Below are positions 29,838 through 39,781 of a stretch of 64,000 nucleotides of DNA, in pieces (the stretch's first letter is position 1; every line of letters starts with the position of its first letter). The notes below the pieces were generated by a model that did not search any database, was not told the origin of the DNA, and saw only the letters and a list, made by a program, of their open reading frames with translations. Source of the DNA: Fundidesulfovibrio putealis DSM 16056 (GTDB lineage: Bacteria > Desulfobacterota > Desulfovibrionia > Desulfovibrionales > Desulfovibrionaceae). The translations under genes and the position numbers were made by a program. The stretch spans positions 186,001 through 250,000 of the forward strand of contig NZ_AUBQ01000003.1 of the NCBI RefSeq assembly GCF_000429325.1, given 5' to 3'.

Positions 29838-29914
29838 GCGCCAGTAGCTCAGGTGGATAGAGCATCTGCCTTCTAAGCAGACGGTCGGGGGTTCGAGTCC
29901 TCCCTGGCGCGCCA
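29838..29914 (+). tRNA. tRNA-Arg (anticodon UCU)
   Basis: 77 bases folding as a full cloverleaf. The acceptor GCGCCAG pairs with CTGGCGC, discriminator G, and CCA is encoded. The D-arm is GCTCAGGTGGATAGAGC. The anticodon stem TCTGC/GCAGA has loop CTTCTAA, so the anticodon is TCT, reading AGA. The T-arm loop is TTCGAGT. Its 3' 47 bases recur at 35040 and 39557, marking it as an integration site. A terminator follows. Confidence 0.96.
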
Positions 29915-29921
29915 GATTTTC

Positions 29922-29955
29922 AAGGGGTTAGGCCTGTTGGCCTGACCCCTTTTTT
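29922..29955 (+). terminator. Terminator of tRNA-Arg
   Basis: Stem AAGGGGTTAGGCC / GGCCTGACCCCTT (one G-T pair) followed by a T run. The whole terminator is duplicated at about 35090-35126 and appears as a decayed piece near 39367-39393. Confidence 0.85.
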
Positions 29956-29977
29956 AGTTGGCTTACCTCATGCCCGA

Positions 29978-30087
29978 ATGCCCTGGACATCAGCACACAT
30001 TAAATGGCTTATTGATGCCGGCCAACGGTTGAAGACCGCTGACGGTAAGGATGATGATGTCTGGGAATTCCGCCATGAGGCAGGCCG
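29978..30087 (+). pseudogene. N-terminal fragment recalling HamA/DUF1837-type protein
   Basis: The frame opens MPWTSAHIKWLIDAGQRL and continues KTADGKDDDVWEFRHEA, then runs into a tRNA 3' half. From memory, the opening resembles the first ~35 residues of DUF1837/HamA proteins (the nuclease subunit of Hachiman defence), usually with …WEFRHEADEAVLSAW… next. Here homology would stop exactly at the tRNA-derived sequence, so it is at most a stub left by recombination. The family assignment is from recall. Confidence 0.4.
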
Positions 30088-30137
30088 CAGCGTTCGCAAC
30101 GCTGAGGTCGTGAGTTCGATCCTCATCGCCTCCACCA
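30088..30137 (+). other. tRNA-Ala(CGC) 3'-half remnant (putative att site)
   Basis: CAGCG-TTCGCAA-CGCTG forms a five-pair anticodon arm with anticodon CGC. A five-base variable region, a T-arm (GTGAG/CTCAT, loop TTCGATC) and an acceptor strand CGCCTCC-A-CCA follow. U at position 70 would allow the G3:U70 pair typical of tRNA-Ala. No matching 5' half (D-arm, acceptor strand) exists upstream, so it is not a functional tRNA. It looks like an attachment-site copy from another element. Confidence 0.65.
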
Positions 30138-30232
30138 AAGATAACAGGGCCTTGCGGCAGAAGGCGTTAGACCCTGAACTTTGGGAGCATGTGGCTGAAA
30201 GGATTACATCAAAACACTGCCCCGTGATTCTT

Positions 30233-30835
30233 TTATGGATTCATGGCCAGGGTTTCAGCCCGCTCCGCTAAAAAGGTCGCGTATTCGCGGTCCATGTGAA
30301 GAGTGGAGAACAGGTAGACGGCTCCGGTAGACGCCGTGGTAAAGGTGATATCCATGCATCCCGGGCTGGATGCCAATGCTTTTAGGACTGACTCGATCTC
30401 TTCCGGTGAAAGTTCGAACGGCGGAGCTTCGAACAGTTCCACCGGCACGGGTCTTGGGTAGTCCCGGCAATTAGTCCTGATTTCCTGGGCCATGAGCTCG
30501 ATAGGGGCTCCTTTGCGGTCCAGGATGAGGGCGTAGGTCCTGCTGAGCAGGTCCGGGGCGTGGTAGAGGGTCCGGCCGGAAAGGCCCGTGAACGATGCGA
30601 CCTCGGGGCTTGCCGACAAGACCATGGCGATTGCCTCCGGATTCTCTTGAGCACGTCCAGCCTCCCCACCCGCGATCCTCTCCCTCACATCGTCCAAGGT
30701 TACCAGCCGCACTTCTCGGCTGGCCTGGAGAACCGCCTCAATCGCGGCCTGTCCCAACGCCGCTTCATGAGCGGCTCGTACTGACTCAGCCTCAGTGATG
30801 GTTTGAGACAGCTTAGCGTCTTTCGTGGGGCTCAT
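30233..30835 (-). CDS. AOR-operon accessory protein (YdhW-like position), unknown function
   Basis: 200 residues, soluble; the start overlaps the AOR stop by 4 bases (ATGA), so translation is coupled. Acidic and helical at the N-terminus (SQTITEAESVRAAHEAALGQ). The middle is SPEVASFTGLSGRTLYHAPD, and the C-terminus contains TFTTASTGAVYLFSTLHMDR. In E. coli the YdhV-type AOR operon (ydhYVWXUT) carries a small protein of unknown function, YdhW, next to the catalytic subunit. Position suggests an equivalent partner or maturation protein. Sequence identity to YdhW was not tested. Confidence 0.65.
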   Translation of the reverse strand: MSPTKDAKLSQTITEAESVRAAHEAALGQAAIEAVLQASREVRLVTLDDVRERIAGGEAGRAQENPEAIAMVLSASPEVASFTGLSGRTLYHAPDLLSRTYALILDRKGAPIELMAQEIRTNCRDYPRPVPVELFEAPPFELSPEEIESVLKALASSPGCMDITFTTASTGAVYLFSTLHMDREYATFLAERAETLAMNP

Positions 30836-32970
30836 CCCTTGCTCCCATCGATTTCCCCCGTGCTGCCCGGAGTAAGCTTAGCGGCCTGCAGCCCTTTACC
30901 CACATCCGCAAGCCCCAACCGGGCGTAGCTTTCCATGGTGGGCGCACCAAGAACCATATCCCAGCCCATGACCTCGTAGAACATATCCATGGCCCGGGCG
31001 ATGTCGGCCTGCTCCATGCGGATGGTGCCCTTGGTGAAGGGGGGCGTATCGCCCTTGTCGTGGTAGGCCCATTCGGGCACCAGATCGTGCGCCGCGCGCA
31101 TGTCCGCCCGTCCCATGTCCCGGATGGTCAGGGCCCGATGAAGAGTGAAAATACGCTCACCGACCAGGTCAAGTTCTACGCGGTCCGTCTTCTTGCCCGT
31201 GGCCAGGCTGTAGAATCTCGATTCCAGGCTGTCGTCGCCCGAGTAGCCGCGCTCCTTGAGCGGCGACGCAACCCAGGGCCCCATCCAGTTGCACAGCCCA
31301 AGTGAGTCATGGAGTTCCTTGCGCATCAGAGACCACCTGGCCCGTCTGGCCTTGGCCGCGTTCATGGGCGTGTAGTCCCCGGCCGCGTCCACGGCGTCCG
31401 GTGAGCCCCATATCTCGGCTGCCAGTTTCTTCTGCACCGCCAGGGGCAGGCCGTTGCGCACGAAGTTGCAATGGGAATGGCACTGGGCATCACGGTTGTA
31501 CTGGGTGTTTATTATCACTCCGCACTGGCCGTCGTCCTCGTTGGCGTGGTGTTTGGGGTGGCCCATCTTCCAGTAGAGCGTGGCGTGGTCCTTGGTCCAG
31601 GTTTCCTCGGGGATGGCCCACTTGGAGAAAATGCCCCCCGAGCCAAGGCTCAGCACGTGGCCGAGCTCCCCCTGGCGCTCCGCTATGCGGGGGATGATGT
31701 CGAACAGGAAGGCCGGGTCGCCGCTCTCGAATTTGTCCCAGGGGATGGAGGCGTACTCGTCCGAGCCGATCTTGGCCTTGAGAAGACCGTCGGAGTAAAG
31801 CTTAATGAGGTCGCGCTGCAACTGGCCGTAGTTGCACCACAGCCCCAGATCGTCGGCCAAGTGCATGCCCACCATGCAGGCTTCCAGGGCGGTCTGGCCC
31901 TTGAGCCCGCCGGGAAGTTTCTTGAAGAAGCTCCGCCCGAACAGGAGCCCTGTACAGGTGTTCTGCCCAATTTCCTTGATGCCGTATTTGGCCGCCACCG
32001 AGGGAACCTTGACGATGGTGTGGCAGCGGATGGGGCAGGCCGTGCAGCCGTTGCCCCGAACCGTGTGCTTCCAGGCGTTGTCGCCCAGGAAAAATGCCGC
32101 GCTGTTGGTCCGAAAGGCGATGCGGTTTAAGTCGTAGATGTTGCCGGTGATCTCGATGGGCGGATCAGCCGCTCCCCAGCGCTTGCCGGGTTCGCCCACC
32201 CAGCGCGAACCCGGATTGTAGTACTCGGACTGGGGGGTGGGAAAACTCGGCACCACGTGCTGGTTGTTGGCGCCAAGGATCGACAGGTGGAACTTGACCA
32301 GCTTCTCCCATTCCGCCTTATCCCCAGCGATGAGCACCGCGCCGCTGCCCTGCACCCCGATGGCCTTCAGGTTCTTGGACCCCATCACCCCGCCCACGCC
32401 GCCAGCGGAATGCGACACGGAGTTGGCCACTATGGCCATGGGAGCAAGCTTCTCGCCAGCCTGGCCGATGGCCGCGACCACGCAGTCCGCGCCCATCTCC
32501 TGGCTGATCTCCAGGGTGGCCCGCCGGATGCCCGTTCCCCAGAGGTGCGAAGCATCGCGAATCTCCACCCGGGAATTGCGTATGAAAAGCCACACCGGCC
32601 TGTCGGCCCGGCCTTCCACTATTATGGCGTCATACCCGGCGTATTTGAGCTTGGCCGCGAACTGCCCGCCCATGTGCCCTGAGCCCACCAGGGGTTTGGG
32701 CCAGACCGTGGGAAAGATGGTGGTGACGGCCGTGCGCCCGTTGCAAGGCACGCCCGTTCCGGCCAGCACGCCCGTGGCGAAGACCAGCTTGTTGGCAGGG
32801 GCGAAGGGGCCGGTTCCGGCCGGAACCTCATCACAGAGCACCCTGTATCCGAGACCTGTGCCGCCGAGCACGTCCCCGTATTTTTCCACTGTGTCCTGGG
32901 TGCTGATCTTTCCCGTGGACAGATCAACCCGCAGCACCTTCCCGGCAAAGCCCCCGGCGGTAGCGGACAT
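30832..32970 (-). CDS. Aldehyde ferredoxin oxidoreductase-family W/Mo enzyme (YdhV-like)
   Basis: 712 residues from the ATG at 32968-32970, which follows AAGGAG. The AOR N-terminal fold has GFAGKVLRVDLSTGKIS and the tungstopterin-binding HMGGQFAAKLKYAGYDAIIV-like block. GVGGVMGSKNLKAIGV and the 4Fe-4S ligand site GNGCTACPIRC (around residue 300) follow. GANNQHVVPS and GLWCNYGQLQRDL match, by recall, E. coli YdhV rather than classical AOR. The enzyme holds bis-pterin W or Mo and an Fe-S cluster; the substrate of YdhV types is unknown. It is co-transcribed with the upstream ferredoxin (20-base gap) and the downstream 200-residue gene. Confidence 0.88.
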   Translation of the reverse strand: MSATAGGFAGKVLRVDLSTGKISTQDTVEKYGDVLGGTGLGYRVLCDEVPAGTGPFAPANKLVFATGVLAGTGVPCNGRTAVTTIFPTVWPKPLVGSGHMGGQFAAKLKYAGYDAIIVEGRADRPVWLFIRNSRVEIRDASHLWGTGIRRATLEISQEMGADCVVAAIGQAGEKLAPMAIVANSVSHSAGGVGGVMGSKNLKAIGVQGSGAVLIAGDKAEWEKLVKFHLSILGANNQHVVPSFPTPQSEYYNPGSRWVGEPGKRWGAADPPIEITGNIYDLNRIAFRTNSAAFFLGDNAWKHTVRGNGCTACPIRCHTIVKVPSVAAKYGIKEIGQNTCTGLLFGRSFFKKLPGGLKGQTALEACMVGMHLADDLGLWCNYGQLQRDLIKLYSDGLLKAKIGSDEYASIPWDKFESGDPAFLFDIIPRIAERQGELGHVLSLGSGGIFSKWAIPEETWTKDHATLYWKMGHPKHHANEDDGQCGVIINTQYNRDAQCHSHCNFVRNGLPLAVQKKLAAEIWGSPDAVDAAGDYTPMNAAKARRARWSLMRKELHDSLGLCNWMGPWVASPLKERGYSGDDSLESRFYSLATGKKTDRVELDLVGERIFTLHRALTIRDMGRADMRAAHDLVPEWAYHDKGDTPPFTKGTIRMEQADIARAMDMFYEVMGWDMVLGAPTMESYARLGLADVGKGLQAAKLTPGSTGEIDGSKG

Positions 32971-32990
32971 ATTGGCTCCTTGGAGATTCG

Positions 32991-33749
32991 TTACTTCGAG
33001 GCCGGGTTCCTTCCGGACGGAACATGGCACTCGGCGCAGGCCTTGGCTTTTTCCACCGGGATGACGGACAACAAAATCCTCTCATTCGCGCCCTCGCGGG
33101 TGAGGTCGCGCCAGGGCACGTAGCGCAGGGCCTGGGCCGGACAGGCTTCCACGCACTTGGGTTTGCCGTTGCACAAAAAACACTTGGAGGATTTCTGGCG
33201 CTCTTCGTCAAAGGAGATAACGCCCCAGGGGCATGCCCGCTGGCACAGGCGGCAGCCCACGCACACGTCCGCGTTCACCACCCTGGCCCCGGTTTTCGGG
33301 TCGTCGGTGATGGCGTCCTGGGGGCAGGCCGTGGCGCAGGGCACCGGGTGCGGGCACTGGCGGCACACGCCCTGGACCACCAACCCGTTGCCCCAGGCTC
33401 CCTGCATGCGCGAGCCTCCGGTCGGGCCTTCGGGGCCGAAGTTCAAGGACCGGTCGATCTTGATGCGGGACAGCGAGGGCTGGGCGCGGCCATCGTTAAA
33501 CTCCGTGCAGGCCAGCTCGCAGCGCTGGCAACCCACGCAGCGGGTGGGATCGGCCAGTATCAGGCCTTTGGCGTTGTCCAGGATCACCAGCGGCGCGTTG
33601 GCACCGAAAGCCTCGCACAGACCCAGGGCGGCGATGCTCCCCACGGCGCAGGCCGAAAACATGAGGAAGCCCCGGCGTGAAAGCGACGTCTCGAGGCCCG
33701 CCGCCTCGGCTGCCAGTTCGATGAGTTCCGGATGGATGCCGCGCTTCAT
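32991..33749 (-). CDS. Tat-exported four-cluster ferredoxin subunit (YdhX/YdhY-like)
   Basis: 252 residues from the ATG at 33747-33749. A twin-arginine motif SRRGFLMF (24-31) and hydrophobic stretch are followed by Cys sets for four 4Fe-4S clusters: C71/74/77/81, C129/132/138/142, C163/166/169/173 and C190/193/199/203. A terminal CAECH (238-242) looks like a single c-type haem site, unusual in this family. As the first gene of the AOR operon it probably relays electrons to or from the AOR subunit. The AOR itself lacks a signal, so co-export or an inward-facing N-terminal anchor must be assumed. Confidence 0.85.
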   Translation of the reverse strand: MKRGIHPELIELAAEAAGLETSLSRRGFLMFSACAVGSIAALGLCEAFGANAPLVILDNAKGLILADPTRCVGCQRCELACTEFNDGRAQPSLSRIKIDRSLNFGPEGPTGGSRMQGAWGNGLVVQGVCRQCPHPVPCATACPQDAITDDPKTGARVVNADVCVGCRLCQRACPWGVISFDEERQKSSKCFLCNGKPKCVEACPAQALRYVPWRDLTREGANERILLSVIPVEKAKACAECHVPSGRNPASK

Positions 33750-33865
33750 ATCCCCCCCGCCGGGTCGGAGCGTTGCAGTTTCCCGGCCTTGGCGCGCCGA
33801 AAAAATGATTATACTGGTACTCCAAGACCTTGTGCACTTCAATCGACAACTTCAAGCGGAAAGGT

Positions 33866-34666
33866 ATGGACCCCAACATCCCCTTTGACATCCTTGAATA
33901 CCGCGACGGGGCTTTCAGCGCCGCCGAGGTGAAGGCCATCCGGGAGCTTCCCCTACGCATAGTGGTCAACGGCCAGGAAGTGATCTCACTGCAGTGCACC
34001 GGCATGCAGCCGAGGTTCCTGGTGGCCGGCTACCTTTTCGGTTCTGGCCTGATTGAACACGCGGACGACATCGTTTCCATGATCGTCACTGAAGATACCG
34101 GGGGTATCGTGGTCTGTGTGGAGATCAAGGGCACCCCGATTAAACTCCTTGGGGTAAGTCTCACCTCCGGCATGGGGCGGGATATCCTGACGCAAGGACA
34201 AGCGGATGAGACCTCCGGCAATCCCAGGTTGGCCAATATCCCAGTGCCGCCAAAACCATTCATCCGGCCGGCAAATATACTGGACATGGTGCGTGCACTC
34301 CACACCCGCTCCAGCCTCTACCGCCTGACTCGCGGCTGCCACAATTCCTCGCTGTGCACTCCGGAAAATATGCTCATCTTCCGCTCGGACATCGGCAGGC
34401 ACAACGCCATCGACACCATCGTGGGCCAATGTCTGATGGAGGCAATCCCGTTGCAGGACAAAATGATCGTGTCCACAGGACGCATCGCCTCGGAAATCGT
34501 TCACAAGGCCGTCCGGGCCGGAATCGGTGTGTACGCGTCCATAGCAGTGGCCACCAGCCATGCCGTGGAAACAGCCATGCGTTATGACCTCACTCTCATC
34601 GGCAACGCCACCGAGGACAAATTTTGGGTGTACCACGATCCCGGACGTCTGTTTTCCAAGTGCTGA
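33866..34666 (+). CDS. FdhD-family protein lacking the canonical CxxC
   Basis: 266 residues from the ATG at 33866; a TTG 36 bases upstream is less likely. FdhD/NarQ proteins pass sulfur to the bis-MGD cofactor of formate dehydrogenase through a CxxC loop (SSCGVCG). Here the equivalent loop reads LTSGMGRD (99-106) with no Cys. Otherwise the family is clear: RSDIGRHNAID (173-183), STGRIASEIVHKAVRAGI, IAVATSHAVETA and FWVYHDPGR. New Cys occur in TRGCHNSSLC (158, 164), where FdhD has TGGLHAAAL. It is divergent from the AOR operon; a TATACT -10-like box lies 50 bases upstream. It may serve the AOR cofactor. Confidence 0.85.
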   Translation: MDPNIPFDILEYRDGAFSAAEVKAIRELPLRIVVNGQEVISLQCTGMQPRFLVAGYLFGSGLIEHADDIVSMIVTEDTGGIVVCVEIKGTPIKLLGVSLTSGMGRDILTQGQADETSGNPRLANIPVPPKPFIRPANILDMVRALHTRSSLYRLTRGCHNSSLCTPENMLIFRSDIGRHNAIDTIVGQCLMEAIPLQDKMIVSTGRIASEIVHKAVRAGIGVYASIAVATSHAVETAMRYDLTLIGNATEDKFWVYHDPGRLFSKC

Positions 34667-35039
34667 ATCATTCTGCGAAGATACTATAATGCGCTCGGAA
34701 TATGTGGCCTGAATAGGATTACGTGGCTATCCCCACTTCACCTGGATAACAGTTTGCTCCAATGGAATCCCCGGAAATGTCCAAACACTGTTATCTTTTT
34801 TGAAATTTATCTAATGAAATCAGTATATTTTGTCAGGGGCCATGCTCCATGGGGTTCAGGGGAGCTTGGTTGGATCAGGTACTGCCTTTTTCTCGTCATA
34901 TGCCCCCCATCTGATCACCTGTGTCGGCTAACTTTTGGAGAACCGCTATGGCCAAATGGGAGTCTGCTTTTCCCGGGGTTCGAACGTGCATGGTTTTATT
35001 TGCGCAATGATTTCAATGGATAAGCGGCCAGTATCCTTG
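34667..35039. other. Intergenic, AT-richer end of island block 1
   Basis: No gene is supported between the FdhD-like gene and the second att-like repeat. Composition is AT-richer than the chromosome average. No recombinase remnant was recognised. Confidence 0.4.
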
Positions 35040-35138
35040 CTTCTAAGCAGACGGTCGGGGTTCGAGTCCTCCCTGGCGCGCCATATTTTCAAGGGGTTAG
35101 GCCTGTTGGCCTGACCCCTTTTTTATGTTGGATTACCT
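35040..35138 (+). repeat. Second copy of tRNA-Arg 3' end plus terminator (att-like)
   Basis: Bases 35040-35083 repeat the tRNA-Arg anticodon-loop-to-CCA segment with one G deleted in the T-stem. Bases 35084-35138 repeat the tRNA terminator and its flank (GTTGG.TTACCT) with a few changes. The 5' half of the tRNA is absent, so no tRNA is made here. Confidence 0.85.
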
Positions 35139-35311
35139 GCCTGGAGAATCTTGTGGCCAACCACCCGAAAACACGAGGGAATTCTGGATAACATTTGGAA
35201 GGCGCGCGAGATGCTGAACTGCGAAAGTGTTGGCGGCGGACGATGAAAAGGGTTGCAGAGAGTGTTAATAAATGGAGGGTGCTTGTTCGGCCTCTCGTGC
35301 AGGTCAGGTGG

Positions 35312-35995
35312 TCAACGCGCCTGGTCCGCATCATCGGTGTCTATGAGCCCTTTACGCATGGCGTAACGGACCAGATCAAGCGGTGATTTAAGCCCTAGTT
35401 TGGCCATGATGTTGGCCCTGTGGTTCTCTACCGTTTTTCGCGTGATGAAGAGCCGTCCGGCAATGGTTATTGGTTTCTCACCCTCCGCCAGGAGTCTCAG
35501 GATTTGCTGCTCCCGTCGCGTGAGTGCATCATAGGAGGAACCTTGGGTGCTGTTCAGGCGTTCCGAATAGTCCAGGAGTTTTCGTATCACCTGCGGGGAA
35601 ATCGAGCAGTCGAGGTATTGCTCCCCACGCCTTACTGCCTCCAACGCCTGGATCAGGCGTTCCCCGACTGAACCTTTTACAACATACCCCATCGCCCCTG
35701 CCCTGAAACTTGCCGCAACCATGTCCATTGAGGAGTGCATGCTGAGTACTATGCAGGTGGTGCGGGGATACAGCGATTTCATCTCAATAATAAGTTCCAT
35801 ACCATGAACATCCGGCAGGGACAGATCCATCAGTATGAACTCCGGCTGCAACTGTGCGGCCAGTTTCCTTGCTTCATCAGCAGAGCCGGCTTCCCCGACC
35901 GTGCAAAAATTCGCCGACGCATCCACCATGGCTCTTACACCCATGCGAAAAAGAGGGTGGTCGTCCACGATGAGAAGCGTGGTTGGAGTATTCAT
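35312..35995 (-). CDS. NarL/FixJ-family response regulator
   Basis: 227 residues. The receiver domain has LLIVDDHPLFRMGV and the phospho-acceptor Asp in FILMDLSLPDVHG (about residue 57), with a conserved Lys in YVVKGSVGER. The C-terminal LuxR-type helix-turn-helix shows LTRREQQILRLLAEGE and TRKTVENHRANIMAKL. It is co-transcribed with, and overlaps by 4 bases, the sensor kinase gene. The likely target is the GltB-like gene upstream or the AOR module; no operator was identified. Confidence 0.92.
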   Translation of the reverse strand: MNTPTTLLIVDDHPLFRMGVRAMVDASANFCTVGEAGSADEARKLAAQLQPEFILMDLSLPDVHGMELIIEMKSLYPRTTCIVLSMHSSMDMVAASFRAGAMGYVVKGSVGERLIQALEAVRRGEQYLDCSISPQVIRKLLDYSERLNSTQGSSYDALTRREQQILRLLAEGEKPITIAGRLFITRKTVENHRANIMAKLGLKSPLDLVRYAMRKGLIDTDDADQAR

Positions 35996-37176
35996 TGCGC
36001 ACCTTCCGTTTGCACGGGTACTTCAACCATGAGTCGGGTTCCTGACCCAGGCGCAGAGCGGATGGTCAAGGTCGCACCGATCAGCCGAGCTCTCTCCCTC
36101 ATGCCGACAAGTCCCATGCCCTGATCGCATGAGAACGGTAGCGTGGCTTGGGGCTCGAAGCCCCGGCCGTTGTCTTCAACCCGCAGTATCACGGACGGGT
36201 GCGATGCAATCAGCCGCACGCGCACTGCACGAGCATCGGAGTGCTTGCGGATGTTCGCAAGGGATTCCTGCAGGATGCGGTAGAGATTGATCTGCGTATC
36301 AAAACTCAGCCGGACCGGGCTCATGCCCTCGCAAGAGAAATCCATCTCCACACCGTGGCGTGAGGCGAAATCCTGGCAGAGACGGTACGTCGCCGAAGGC
36401 AGACCGAGCGGCTCCAGCGCCGGTGGCAGGAGGGAATAGGCCAGGTGGCGTATTTCGCCAATCACCGCCCCTGTCTGTTGGAGCAGTCGCCCTATCTGCG
36501 CGGATGCCTCAGCGGAAAGGGAACCGAACCTAGCAAGCAGGGATTCAAGCTCCATTTTGATCAGGGACAGATCCTGGGCCGCCTTGTCGTGCAGGTCGCG
36601 CGCGATGCGCTGGCGCTCGTTCTCCTGGGCCTTGATCAATTCGCTCGACAGGCTGCGCAAAAGGGTCTTTATCCGTCTCGCCTCTACTATCCGCCCCAGC
36701 AGGTCGGCCACAGCGTTCAGGAGGTGGCGTTCTTCCTTGAGAAACGGTCCCTCCCCGCAGTCGGGGTATCGCTTCAGGTAGCGGACCTCGACAAACCCGG
36801 CCTCTTCCCCCCCCGCCCGCACGGAACACGACTGGACCCAGGGAGTGGGAGAGTAGCCTGCGGTCTTGTGCTCCACACCGTCCACGGCCACAAGCGCACA
36901 GGTTCCTTCAGGGTGCTGCCAGGACGACCGGATCACCTCCGCAATACCTTTGACCAGGTCCGTAGTCGATATGTCTTCATCCTGTGAGAGGCGCGTGATT
37001 GAGTAGAGGCAGTTGAGTTCTTTAACCCGCTCGCGCAGGGCACGTAGGGTCTTGCCATGCGCGGCCAGTATTCCCTGCCTGCCGCTCGGCCCTATGGCGC
37101 GGGATGGGCTATGCCTTACCCTTGTCCGGATCCTGGCGAGGGATCTGGCTAGGTGCGTTCGGCGAACGGCTTTCAT
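35992..37176 (-). CDS. NarX/DegS-type soluble sensor histidine kinase
   Basis: 394 residues. The N-terminal coiled coil (TLRALRERVKELNCLYSITR) is followed by a GAF-like region (about 60-180). The HisKA_3 helix has the His in ERQRIARDLHDKAAQDLSL, and the HATPase domain has RVEDNGRGFEP and GMGLVGMRERA. There is no membrane helix, so it senses a cytoplasmic signal. Cys in the GAF region (CALVAVDG, QSCSVRAGG, YPDCGEG) could ligate a cofactor. It overlaps its response regulator by 4 bases. The first ~35 residues are basic and poorly conserved-looking, so the true start may be downstream. Confidence 0.88.
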   Translation of the reverse strand: MKAVRRTHLARSLARIRTRVRHSPSRAIGPSGRQGILAAHGKTLRALRERVKELNCLYSITRLSQDEDISTTDLVKGIAEVIRSSWQHPEGTCALVAVDGVEHKTAGYSPTPWVQSCSVRAGGEEAGFVEVRYLKRYPDCGEGPFLKEERHLLNAVADLLGRIVEARRIKTLLRSLSSELIKAQENERQRIARDLHDKAAQDLSLIKMELESLLARFGSLSAEASAQIGRLLQQTGAVIGEIRHLAYSLLPPALEPLGLPSATYRLCQDFASRHGVEMDFSCEGMSPVRLSFDTQINLYRILQESLANIRKHSDARAVRVRLIASHPSVILRVEDNGRGFEPQATLPFSCDQGMGLVGMRERARLIGATLTIRSAPGSGTRLMVEVPVQTEGAQ

Positions 37177-37277
37177 GACGTCTTATGGTGGCGCTTTTTC
37201 GGAGGGAAGACAACACCTGCGGACCGGAAAGTACCACAATAGCCGGGGCGGCTGTGCACCGCCCCAGCGACCGGTTT

Positions 37278-38912
37278 CTAGGCCAGAAGGAGTCTGCGAG
37301 CGGATTCGTCCTGGATACTGGTGATGAAGGGAATGCCGGTTTCCAGAGCGGTTTCGCGGTTGGCCGAGGCGATGTCCTCCCGAGCAATCTCGCAGACCGA
37401 GAACTTTCTAGCACCTGCCAGTAATTGCTGCATACCTGCCCCCAATTTGTCCATAAGGGTACAGATGGCAACGGCGCCGTAGGGCACGTGCTTCATTTCG
37501 TCCAACCCTACCTTCTTCTTCACGGATGCCCAGCCTGCGAAGATCTCCTCCGGCGAAGCGCCGATGTCTTTCACGCTTTTGGGTAGGGCGTCCCAGTTGC
37601 CGCAGACCGCGTCCCGGGATTCCGGGTTGAGAGCCCCCTCAATGTTGGCACCCAGGAAACCCGGAATCATGACCGCCCTGCCCATGCAGATCAACTTAGC
37701 GTACGGTGCGCCCAGGGCCATGGCCTTGAAGATATGATCCTCGCGAGCGAAACCGCCAGCGAAAGAAAGGTCTACGACTTTCTTGCCTCGGGACGCCAGC
37801 AACGAGGCGTATTCGTAGGCCTTTGCGTGCAGCAGGATGGAGGGCACACCCCAGGTTTCCATCATGTTCCAGGGGCTCATGCCGGTTCCGCCGCCGGAGC
37901 CGTCGATGGTCAGCAGGTCCAACTCGCAGTCGGTGGCGTAGCGGATGGCCATGGCAAGGGCTTCCATGCCGTAAGAGCCTGTTTTGAGGGAAATGCTGGT
38001 GTAGCCCAGCTTGCGCAGGTGTGCGACGTTTGCCATGAAGTTGTCCCGCACGGCGGCTTCGGAGTCCAGGTCTGTGTAGCCCAGCCTGGAATGCCGAGCA
38101 AAACCTTTGACAGCTCCAGACTCGTATCCTTCGCGCACCTCGGCCAATTCCGGATCGGGATCCACCAGGTAACCGCGTCGCTTAAGGAAAAGGGCGTAAT
38201 CCAGGCTGGATACCTCGATCTCCCCGCCGATGTTTTTGGCGCCCTGTCCCCACTTCAGTTCGATGATCACCTTGTCGCCGTACTTGTCGATCACGTATTC
38301 GGCCACGCCGTTGCGGGTGTCCTCGACGTTGAGCTGAACAATGATGGCCCCGTAGCCGTCGAAATAGCGCATGTAGCCAGCGATGCGCCGATCCAGTTCT
38401 GGGGCTTTGGATATCTTGCCGTTGGAAAGGATGGACTCTCGGTCAACGCCAACCACGTTCTCACCCACGACGATGGGGATGCCTGAAAGCGAGCAGCCTG
38501 CGGCGAAAGAATCCCAGTACTTGGCCGCGATGAAAGTGGAGCCGAGAGCTCCAGTCATTAGGGGGAGGCGGGCCTTGTGCCCTTTGCCGAAGGATGTTTC
38601 CAGGCTCACGTTAGTGAAGAGGCAGTCGTCGGGGCTGTTGGTGCGGCCTTCGACAAAAGCCTTCGCACCGTAGTTGTACCCTTGGATGCGCAACGCGTTG
38701 TAGTTCACCCCCACGTGGGTGGTGTTTCCACTGCCTGCCGTCACCATCCCAAAATCCCGAGGGTAGAGCATGGCGCGACCCTTGAGGCTGGAAAGCCAGC
38801 ATTCGCATTTACCTTGGCAATCCGCGCGGCAAAGGGTGCAAAGCCCGGATTCAGCGATATTTCCCCTATTCACGGTGCCGAGGACGTCGTTGGCTTTTGT
38901 AAGGCTGCTCAT
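37278..38912 (-). CDS. GltB-like FMN-binding protein with Cys-rich N-terminus
   Basis: 544 residues of the glutamate-synthase alpha/beta-barrel family without the amidotransferase domain. The FMN/barrel motifs are VIIELKWGQGAKNIGGE, LTIDGSGGGTGMSPWNMME and AGGFAREDHIFKAMALGAPY. The N-terminus carries CTLCRADCQGKCECW (Cys at about 25, 28, 32, 36, 38), a likely Fe-S or metal site. The role could be an FMN/Fe-S oxidoreductase related to archaeal-type glutamate synthase; true GltS activity is not implied. It is upstream of and co-oriented with the two-component pair (100-base gap). Confidence 0.85.
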   Translation of the reverse strand: MSSLTKANDVLGTVNRGNIAESGLCTLCRADCQGKCECWLSSLKGRAMLYPRDFGMVTAGSGNTTHVGVNYNALRIQGYNYGAKAFVEGRTNSPDDCLFTNVSLETSFGKGHKARLPLMTGALGSTFIAAKYWDSFAAGCSLSGIPIVVGENVVGVDRESILSNGKISKAPELDRRIAGYMRYFDGYGAIIVQLNVEDTRNGVAEYVIDKYGDKVIIELKWGQGAKNIGGEIEVSSLDYALFLKRRGYLVDPDPELAEVREGYESGAVKGFARHSRLGYTDLDSEAAVRDNFMANVAHLRKLGYTSISLKTGSYGMEALAMAIRYATDCELDLLTIDGSGGGTGMSPWNMMETWGVPSILLHAKAYEYASLLASRGKKVVDLSFAGGFAREDHIFKAMALGAPYAKLICMGRAVMIPGFLGANIEGALNPESRDAVCGNWDALPKSVKDIGASPEEIFAGWASVKKKVGLDEMKHVPYGAVAICTLMDKLGAGMQQLLAGARKFSVCEIAREDIASANRETALETGIPFITSIQDESARRLLLA

Positions 38913-39556
38913 CTCTTCTCCTGCTGGTTGCGGTTGGTGGGGTCTGTTTTCGGGTGTGCAGTCACTGCGTGCTGTTGCCGGGTTCAGCCATGGTGGTCAT
39001 GAGGTTCTCAAGGTTCCCAGGTGCCGATGCCGGAGCGGTTTGGCTTGTGGTCACCGGGTTCCGGCATGTCCGCTCGATCACGGGCGTCCGTTGTTTCCAT
39101 GGGTAGCCTCTTCTTTCGGGCGCTCCTTGATAATTGGCAGGCCAGGGCGAGCATCTTTCTCTGCCCCGTGTGTTTAGCAAGGAAAACACACAAGAGACGC
39201 TCCATTGTCCATGGGGAGAAGGAATGGATTTCCGGGACATTGCCCCAAAACTCCCACCCAATAGTGGCGGAGGAAGGACTTGAGTCTGGCTGGGCTTGAA
39301 ACGCATGCAAGTACAGCATGCTACCGGAGATGAGTCCTCCATCTCTTGTACGCGAGTAAATTCAGTGTGTTAGACGTGTTGGCCTGACCCCTTGCTACCG
39401 GGGGGAGGATTGAGTTGCCTGCTATGCAGGGCAAGAGTGACTTAGTAAGTCCCAATTCCAAGCGATAAACATTTCAGGGGGTGTCTGGATGTCCCCTGAG
39501 TCCGTAAGTGTCTTGATAATCAACTTAACTGGTTGAAATTCATGTGGGTGGCTTGG
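38913..39556. other. Intergenic end of island block 2 with decayed terminator copy
   Basis: No gene is supported. GTTAGACGTGTTGGCCTGAC (39369-39388) is a mutated piece of the tRNA-Arg terminator repeat, implying earlier insertion or deletion here. Confidence 0.45.
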
Positions 39557-39603
39557 GCCTTCTAAGCAGACGGTCGGGGGTTCGAGTCCTCCCTGGCGCG
39601 CCA
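39557..39603 (+). repeat. Third copy of tRNA-Arg 3' end (att-like, probable original right boundary)
   Basis: 47 bases identical to tRNA-Arg from the anticodon stem to CCA. Unlike copies 1 and 2, the flank on the right is different and contains its own terminator, as expected if this is the displaced original 3' end of the chromosomal tRNA gene. Confidence 0.88.
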
Positions 39604-39614
39604 CGAATGGTGAA

Positions 39615-39649
39615 GGCTCCTGGGTTTTGACATCCCAGGGGCCTTTTTT
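39615..39649 (+). terminator. Rho-independent terminator after third att copy
   Basis: Stem GGCTCCTGGG / CCCAGGGGCC followed by T6. It was probably the ancestral tRNA-Arg terminator before insertion. Confidence 0.85.
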
Positions 39650-39781
39650 GTTTGCCGCCTGTTTGCCGGTTGAGAGCAACAAGCTTCGCCTTGCAAGACG
39701 CCCCGCACCCATTCGTGGACACCTGGAACATTCTTCGTGTAGCGTTGAATCAGTCCCGGACCCGAAACAGAAGGAGCGTCC

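Follow-up and report, generated by a model that had tools for sequence, protein, structure and literature searches.

In the part of PMC5704250 available to us, integration is followed by decay to a CIME (cis-mobilizable element) and then by accretion with ICEs or IMEs. The Dehalococcoides islands at ssrA also lie in tandem, framed by repeats of the 3' end of an RNA gene, and carry respiratory cargo; 15 of them have no integration module, and the authors, in the available portion of their article, regard these as possible CIMEs (PMC3146451). Tandem islands that lack an integrase and share a single RNA gene as their site are therefore already known, at least from what these two incomplete texts describe (PMC5704250, PMC3146451), and the word 'unusual', chosen in an earlier note on the locus presented here, was too strong. 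Among the matches listed, no paper deals with such islands in Solidesulfovibrio or Fundidesulfovibrio. The locus comprises 9,642 bases behind a tRNA-Arg(UCU) gene of Fundidesulfovibrio putealis DSM 16056, and probably consists of stacked integrative elements, two at the least and perhaps three, from which the integrase was lost and in which the metabolic cargo was kept.

The tRNA-Arg(UCU) gene and the copies of its 3' end

The window, i.e., the whole stretch of 64,000 bases analysed (G000:C1:186001-250000), belongs to a 4.7 Mb genome in 29 contigs (G000). The sole tRNA detected in it by ARAGORN is an intact tRNA-Arg(UCU) with the anticodon TCT (29838..29914, plus strand, as are all features below unless stated otherwise). 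Its last 47 bases (29868-29914), referred to here as copy 1 of the attachment core, appeared twice more in the repeat comparison. In copy 2 (35040..35083), 44 bases align with 45 of the tRNA, one base being absent, and copy 3 (39557..39603) is exact over 47 bases, which confirms both the exact recurrence and the copy with one deletion reported in the earlier note. An exact repeat of this length (47 bases) is far more than chance would produce, and the 5' half of the tRNA is absent at both orphan copies (copies 2 and 3). Copies 1 and 2 have one terminator behind them in common, of an element type (29915..29956 and 35084..35125, respectively), within 69 nt that are 99% identical, so that the terminator is indeed duplicated at copy 2 as previously noticed; a different, chromosomal terminator stands behind copy 3 (39604..39660). 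Of the eight matches to the tRNA plus terminator in the same genome, three are these copies, and the other five (<=62 bits, 72-87% identity) are probably different tRNA genes. The exact pattern of core and terminator gave 0 matches in genome_contigs, in which records close to the window may be absent. At 0.54-0.65 per kb, the G+C content of the blocks is in line with that of the rest of the window.

Two candidates were dropped in this comparison. The terminator had been considered as an element-specific marker, but the att2 module also matches the flanks of tRNA-Lys and tRNA-Arg(ACG) in G030 and G042, and the terminator alone was therefore not relied on. A weak core-like match immediately left of copy 2 (score 15, reached in 0/200 shuffles) was one among 40 comparisons and is not claimed.

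The boundaries of the locus emerged from a sample of seven genomes of the genus, G000 included. The gene left of tRNA-Arg adjoins the tRNA in all of them (7/7). For the gene that follows copy 3 on the right, a relative at 90% was found in G004 alone; the next best match reaches 54% and lies elsewhere. Synteny with G004 on the left (92% identity) stops at window position 29908, within the end of the tRNA, and synteny on the right (91% identity) resumes at 39557, the first base of copy 3; the terminator behind copy 3 is 98% shared with G004, where the same right-hand gene adjoins. Judging from these breakpoints, 29915-39556 is foreign to the locus and copy 3 is the displaced original end of the tRNA. 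Between the breakpoints G004 carries other genes: a 379-aa tyrosine integrase adjoins the right copy, and further left on the same contig lie proteins matching phage primase and annealing-protein families (five of the 10 proteins scanned, 8 from G004 and 2 from G083, had a match). The G004 assembly is 66% complete and its island spans a contig break. Comparison of the tRNA-Arg(TCT) locus among relatives, which the earlier note had proposed for finding empty, single and double occupancy, yielded one framed block of 5.8 kb in G005 and no empty site, the right flank of copy 3 being found only in the incomplete G004 assembly, which breaks off within the island.

Two further observations concern this tRNA. 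The tRNA-Arg of G004 (L055 1557-1634, G004:C12) apparently lacks four acceptor-end bases, by assembly error or in reality. On a 47 kb contig predicted as viral in IMG/VR (L198; 1010 bases examined), a folC-like fragment lies left of an intact tRNA-Arg(TCT); the contig may represent a provirus at the same locus elsewhere.

Cargo of the two framed blocks

Behind the terminator of copy 1, a HamA-like (Hachiman) gene starts and ends after ~36 codons (29978..30085; PADLOC HamA, E=4.2e-4, profile positions 1-35 of 271; no Pfam match). It runs into a 3' piece of tRNA-Ala(CGC) without the 5' half (30086..30148), which matches the intact gene of G000:C12 with 97% identity over 63 nt. The stump and the piece are scars of at least one further event, either integration or rearrangement. 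A second orphan 3' piece of tRNA-Ala(CGC) was noticed near a tyrosine integrase in the same genome (L065, G000:C4:321592-322851).

Block A, between copies 1 and 2, encodes a YdhW-like protein (30233..30835, minus strand; NCBIfam NF007411, E=4e-32, under its cut-off), a YdhV-type aldehyde ferredoxin oxidoreductase, hereafter AOR (30832..33030, minus strand; NF007354, 997 bits, above cut-off; AFOR_N and AFOR_C domains), a YdhY-like ferredoxin-like protein (32991..33842, minus strand; NF007382, E=9e-47, under cut-off; Fer4 domains) and FdhD (33830..34666, plus strand; TIGR00129, above cut-off; PF02634). Block B, between copies 2 and 3, encodes a LuxR-type response regulator (35312..35995; PF00072, PF00196), a HisKA_3 histidine kinase (35992..37176; PF07730, PF02518) and a GltB-like protein with a Glu_synthase domain (37278..38912; PF01645, E=3e-14; no NCBIfam match), all on the minus strand. 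These are the AOR/FdhD block and the two-component/GltB-like block of the earlier note. No relaxase or secretion gene was found by Pfam among the seven block genes, six of which had a match.

Full-length relatives of the AOR (58-82%) occur in 7/58 other genomes, and their placement is known for four of the seven. Those of G001, G003 and G034 lie on contigs other than that of tRNA-Arg. In G030, an AOR cluster lies ~5 kb right of the same tRNA in the same orientation; FdhD is absent from the 19 kb read, and no second core copy was found in this genome. Relatives of the GltB-like protein were detected in 34/59 genomes, the own genome included, and are absent from G001 and G003; the trio of regulator, kinase and GltB-like gene also stays together in G034. 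Both blocks at this locus without the repeats, which the earlier note had named as speaking against islands, were seen in 0 genomes examined, the AOR cluster alone being present in G030. In G005, the 5.8 kb from the tRNA to a second core encode a P-type ATPase, a ferric-reductase-like protein and a CBS-like protein (below the Pfam cut-off) and no integrase. No third core was found in G005, and no second one in G001 or G003.

Both cargo clusters of the window also occur ~22 kb apart on a contig of G034 without the tRNA-Arg (G034:C3:48131-73328; L130, L122). G006 was considered as a further framed block, with a second terminator 3.7 kb from the tRNA (module score 27 vs 14.7, 0/40), but was rejected when its core, tested separately, was matched in 73/1000 shuffles. 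Proteins of ~645 aa, 56% alike and of autotransporter type by eye, lie near tRNA-Arg(TCT) in two genera (G003, L063, right of the tRNA; G030, L123 4260-6194).

Arm-like repeats, a decayed module and the search for an integrase

Behind several tRNA cores we noticed an array consisting of TGGATAAC at 0, 13 and 56 and TGGCCAAC at 25, in which the first TGGATAAC lies at ~+93 to +98 from the core and is repeated 13 and 56 further on. On a template built from other genomes and not from the window (maximum score 32), the four sites behind copy 2 (35129..35192) reached 29/32, the top of 127,860 placements on both window strands, with a runner-up of 19. Site search also revealed an arm-like site with one mismatch 102 bases left of core 2 (34936..34943), and G005b and the two Solidesulfovibrio orphans likewise have sites on the left of the core, near -99 to -102 and -110 to -113. 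By their position, the repeats look like the arm sites to which an integrase would bind, and copy 2, with the arm-like array behind it, reads as a junction between two elements with an attP-like make-up. Within the window, copies 1 and 3 scored 16 and the fourth module described below 13, against a best-of-31 background of 12.8 +- 1.4 (56/5000 at >=17). Copy 1 is, by this score, at background and has lost its array.

Of 20 sites outside the window, eight scored 31-32 (G002a, G083, G099a, G099c153, G062, the tRNA-Pro orphan of S. aerotolerans and two of S. alcoholivorans), tRNA-Pro of S. aerotolerans scored 26 and G005a 22; the high-scoring sites supplied the template, so that these scores are no independent test, and 4/20 sites come from one genome. 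The remaining 10 scored 12-17 (G002b, G005b, G006, G001, G003, both ends of G004, G030, G034 and the tRNA-Ala site of G005), those of G005b, G006 and the G005 tRNA-Ala site being at or near background. Exact first three array sites were found in seven stretches of genome_contigs (84,980 species, possibly without records close to the window), all of Solidesulfovibrio: three in aerotolerans, two in alcoholivorans and two in magneticus MBC34. Within the genus the array occurs in 2/7 genomes only, G002 (0 mismatches) and G000 (3); with up to 3 mismatches allowed, G000 yielded no second array, and IMG/VR gave no exact match.

Near the right end of block B, alignment against shuffled sequences identified a decayed fourth module with a faint core, a spacer and a terminator (39315..39393). 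It scored 32 against the core plus terminator of G002, a value reached by 0/200 shuffles (8.9 +- 1.4). When the parts were tested separately, the terminator (39361-39393, 85% identity) was matched by 0/1000 shuffles, and the G002 core plus spacer also by 0/1000; the G002 core alone was matched by 8/1000, and the window's own core by 64/1000 (50/200 in a smaller run). On these tests the terminator is sure and the core of the module faint, and a third element, now reduced to ~160 bases, is likely at this position but not proven.

The statement in the earlier note that no integrase is present holds for the window, as tyrosine integrases were found neither as PF00589 matches, nor by tblastn with three tyrosine integrases, nor with a profile from 11 integrases; for serine recombinases and transposases, the seven block genes run on Pfam showed none. 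The profile gave six matches in 28 sources (L179, L180, L056, L060, L120, L197), two of which (L179 and L056) were already in the profile; 80 kb of G083 and the stretch G005:C19:13001-53000 were without a match. The match in L197 (G005:C19:1-13000) is one integrase near other tRNAs, and that in L060 (G002) is an early-ending integrase fragment adjoining an orphan tRNA-Arg core. In Solidesulfovibrio aerotolerans, the array behind tRNA-Pro(TGG) is directly followed by a 348-aa integrase (PF00589), and the orphan tRNA-Pro core, which has both arms, is adjoined by a relative of this integrase. On a 4.2 kb contig of the same species, an orphan tRNA-Arg core with array adjoins molybdopterin-oxidoreductase and Fe-S genes. 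In G000, the best relatives of the 348-aa integrase among 15 matches are at C3:2770 (45%) and C4:322195 (34%).

Other recombinases came to our attention in these searches. An integrase 51-52% like that of S. aerotolerans adjoins tRNA-Ala(GGC) in G005:C13 (L189 4648-5867), and behind that tRNA are a similar hairpin and two GATAAC repeats, the array template scoring 16/32 only. Neighbouring pairs of tyrosine recombinases of the same clade, one short and one of 340-420 aa, were seen in G002:C2, G003:C5, G001:C7, G001:C35 and G000:C3.

Probable origin of the locus and comparison with known systems

If the locus is a stack of integrative elements, the elements would have entered successively at the 3' end of tRNA-Arg(UCU) by tyrosine-integrase recombination, in an order of events that we infer. 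Each element would have supplied its own tRNA 3' half and terminator, keeping the tRNA whole, and the original 3' end with its terminator would have been displaced to 39557. Copy 2, as the junction of two elements, would accordingly bear arm-like sites on both sides, and the fourth module would be the ruin of a third boundary. The array at copy 1 may have been lost in a later rearrangement that left the HamA stump and the tRNA-Ala piece, and the integrase and the mobile genes would have disappeared after integration, the metabolic cargo being retained. This course of events starts from direct observations, namely the copies, the different terminator on the right, the synteny breakpoints at the copies, the array, the integrase searches without a match and the signs of decay. 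Counted against it are the failure to find an empty site, the AOR cluster of G030 without a second copy, the AOR genes on other contigs in G001 and G003, the unremarkable G+C content, the weak core of the fourth module and the putative role of the array, which is judged by its position. The G030 cluster, lying near the same tRNA, also favours a course without any mobile element, in which the 3' end of the tRNA was duplicated locally and the region was inherited vertically. We nevertheless judge such duplication highly improbable, as (i) both 5' halves are missing, (ii) the G004 breakpoints coincide with the copies, (iii) different genes occupy the site in relatives, and (iv) the array behind copy 2 is also found at integrase-bearing sites.

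Other explanations accept mobile elements and differ in how the cargo arrived. Minimal cassettes without an integrase, made of core, terminator, arms and cargo, could have been moved in trans by integrases of elements elsewhere that read the same arms. Intact arrays do occur at tRNA-Arg sites with no integrase in the DNA read (the tRNA side of G002, G083, G062, the S. alcoholivorans orphan with both arms, and the S. aerotolerans orphan), and the same array adjoins an integrase at tRNA-Pro; but much of that DNA ends at contig breaks, where a more distant integrase may be missed, the tRNA-Pro and tRNA-Arg cores differ, and in G002 it is at an orphan tRNA-Arg core that the integrase fragment lies. 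As the genome of the window has no second array and copy 1 has none at all, we regard movement in trans as unlikely here. In a broader version, the Desulfovibrionaceae would harbour, at tRNA-Arg(UCU), a lineage of metabolic cassettes that lack an integrase. Each cassette would be reduced to a core, a terminator, the conserved arm array and a small number of respiratory or regulatory genes, and would be spread by the integrases of sister elements which sit at other tRNAs and read the same array; the window would show a stalled pair of such cassettes. This version seems rather unlikely. Improbable, too, is a cargo swap in which homologous recombination between tandem copies put the present genes in place of the integrase of older att-framed elements: the module behind the core is alike over ~160-170 bp across genera while the genes beyond differ, and block B is oriented toward the core as is the integrase at tRNA-Pro, but no trace of exchange was seen and simple deletion yields the same end state. 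Of the two readings offered in the earlier note, decayed islands and trans-mobilisation, it is decay that gains support, because the array of copy 1 is lost, the fourth module is degenerate and no other array is present in the genome; trans-mobilisation, which gained no positive support in the window, is more plausible for relatives with intact arrays. The stacked elements are thus most likely immobile fossils at present, in which the ydhYVW-like/fdhD block and the two-component/GltB-like operon are kept.

The locus illustrates how successive integrations can place metabolic clusters at a single tRNA and how these clusters can persist after loss of the integrase; the clusters here are a YdhV-type aldehyde oxidoreductase set and a two-component/GltB-like operon. 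The 0/13/25/56 array behind tRNA cores provides a handle for finding Desulfovibrionaceae islands after integrase loss, and makes trans-mobilisation testable, as an integrase of the clade is available together with tRNA-Arg sites that bear both arms. What is newly found here is this array, common to two tRNA targets and two genera, together with the cargo blocks; the arrangement itself is known, its anatomy is unusually readable here, and scars of the attachment sites are retained.

Phage satellites are defined by an integrase of their own together with genes for replication or for hijacking of packaging. The present stack has no integrase, and its cargo is metabolic and regulatory. The tRNA-targeted islands of the Islander kind share with it a regenerated target gene and a displaced fragment that mark the ends, as far as the available part of PMC4383910 describes them; the intact tRNA and the displaced 3' fragment are both present here, and unlike in those islands no integrase lies inside the stack. 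The Dehalococcoides islands resemble it in that several follow one another behind a single RNA gene and carry respiratory cargo, but their target is ssrA and their integrase DsiB is compared with CcrB of SCCmec in the portion of PMC3146451 at hand, while the type presumed for the window is a tyrosine integrase. Closest are the CIMEs: in the accessible text of PMC5704250 they likewise lie in tandem at the 3' end of a single tRNA, are framed by att copies and lack both integrase and transfer genes. In the window the cores are kept, the array is lost at copy 1 and the fourth module is decayed; unlike in CIMEs, some of the att copies do not look functional. As the retained att sites may or may not be functional and descent from an ICE or IME was not seen, we do not class the stack as a CIME; as a tandem, it works like one of CIMEs.
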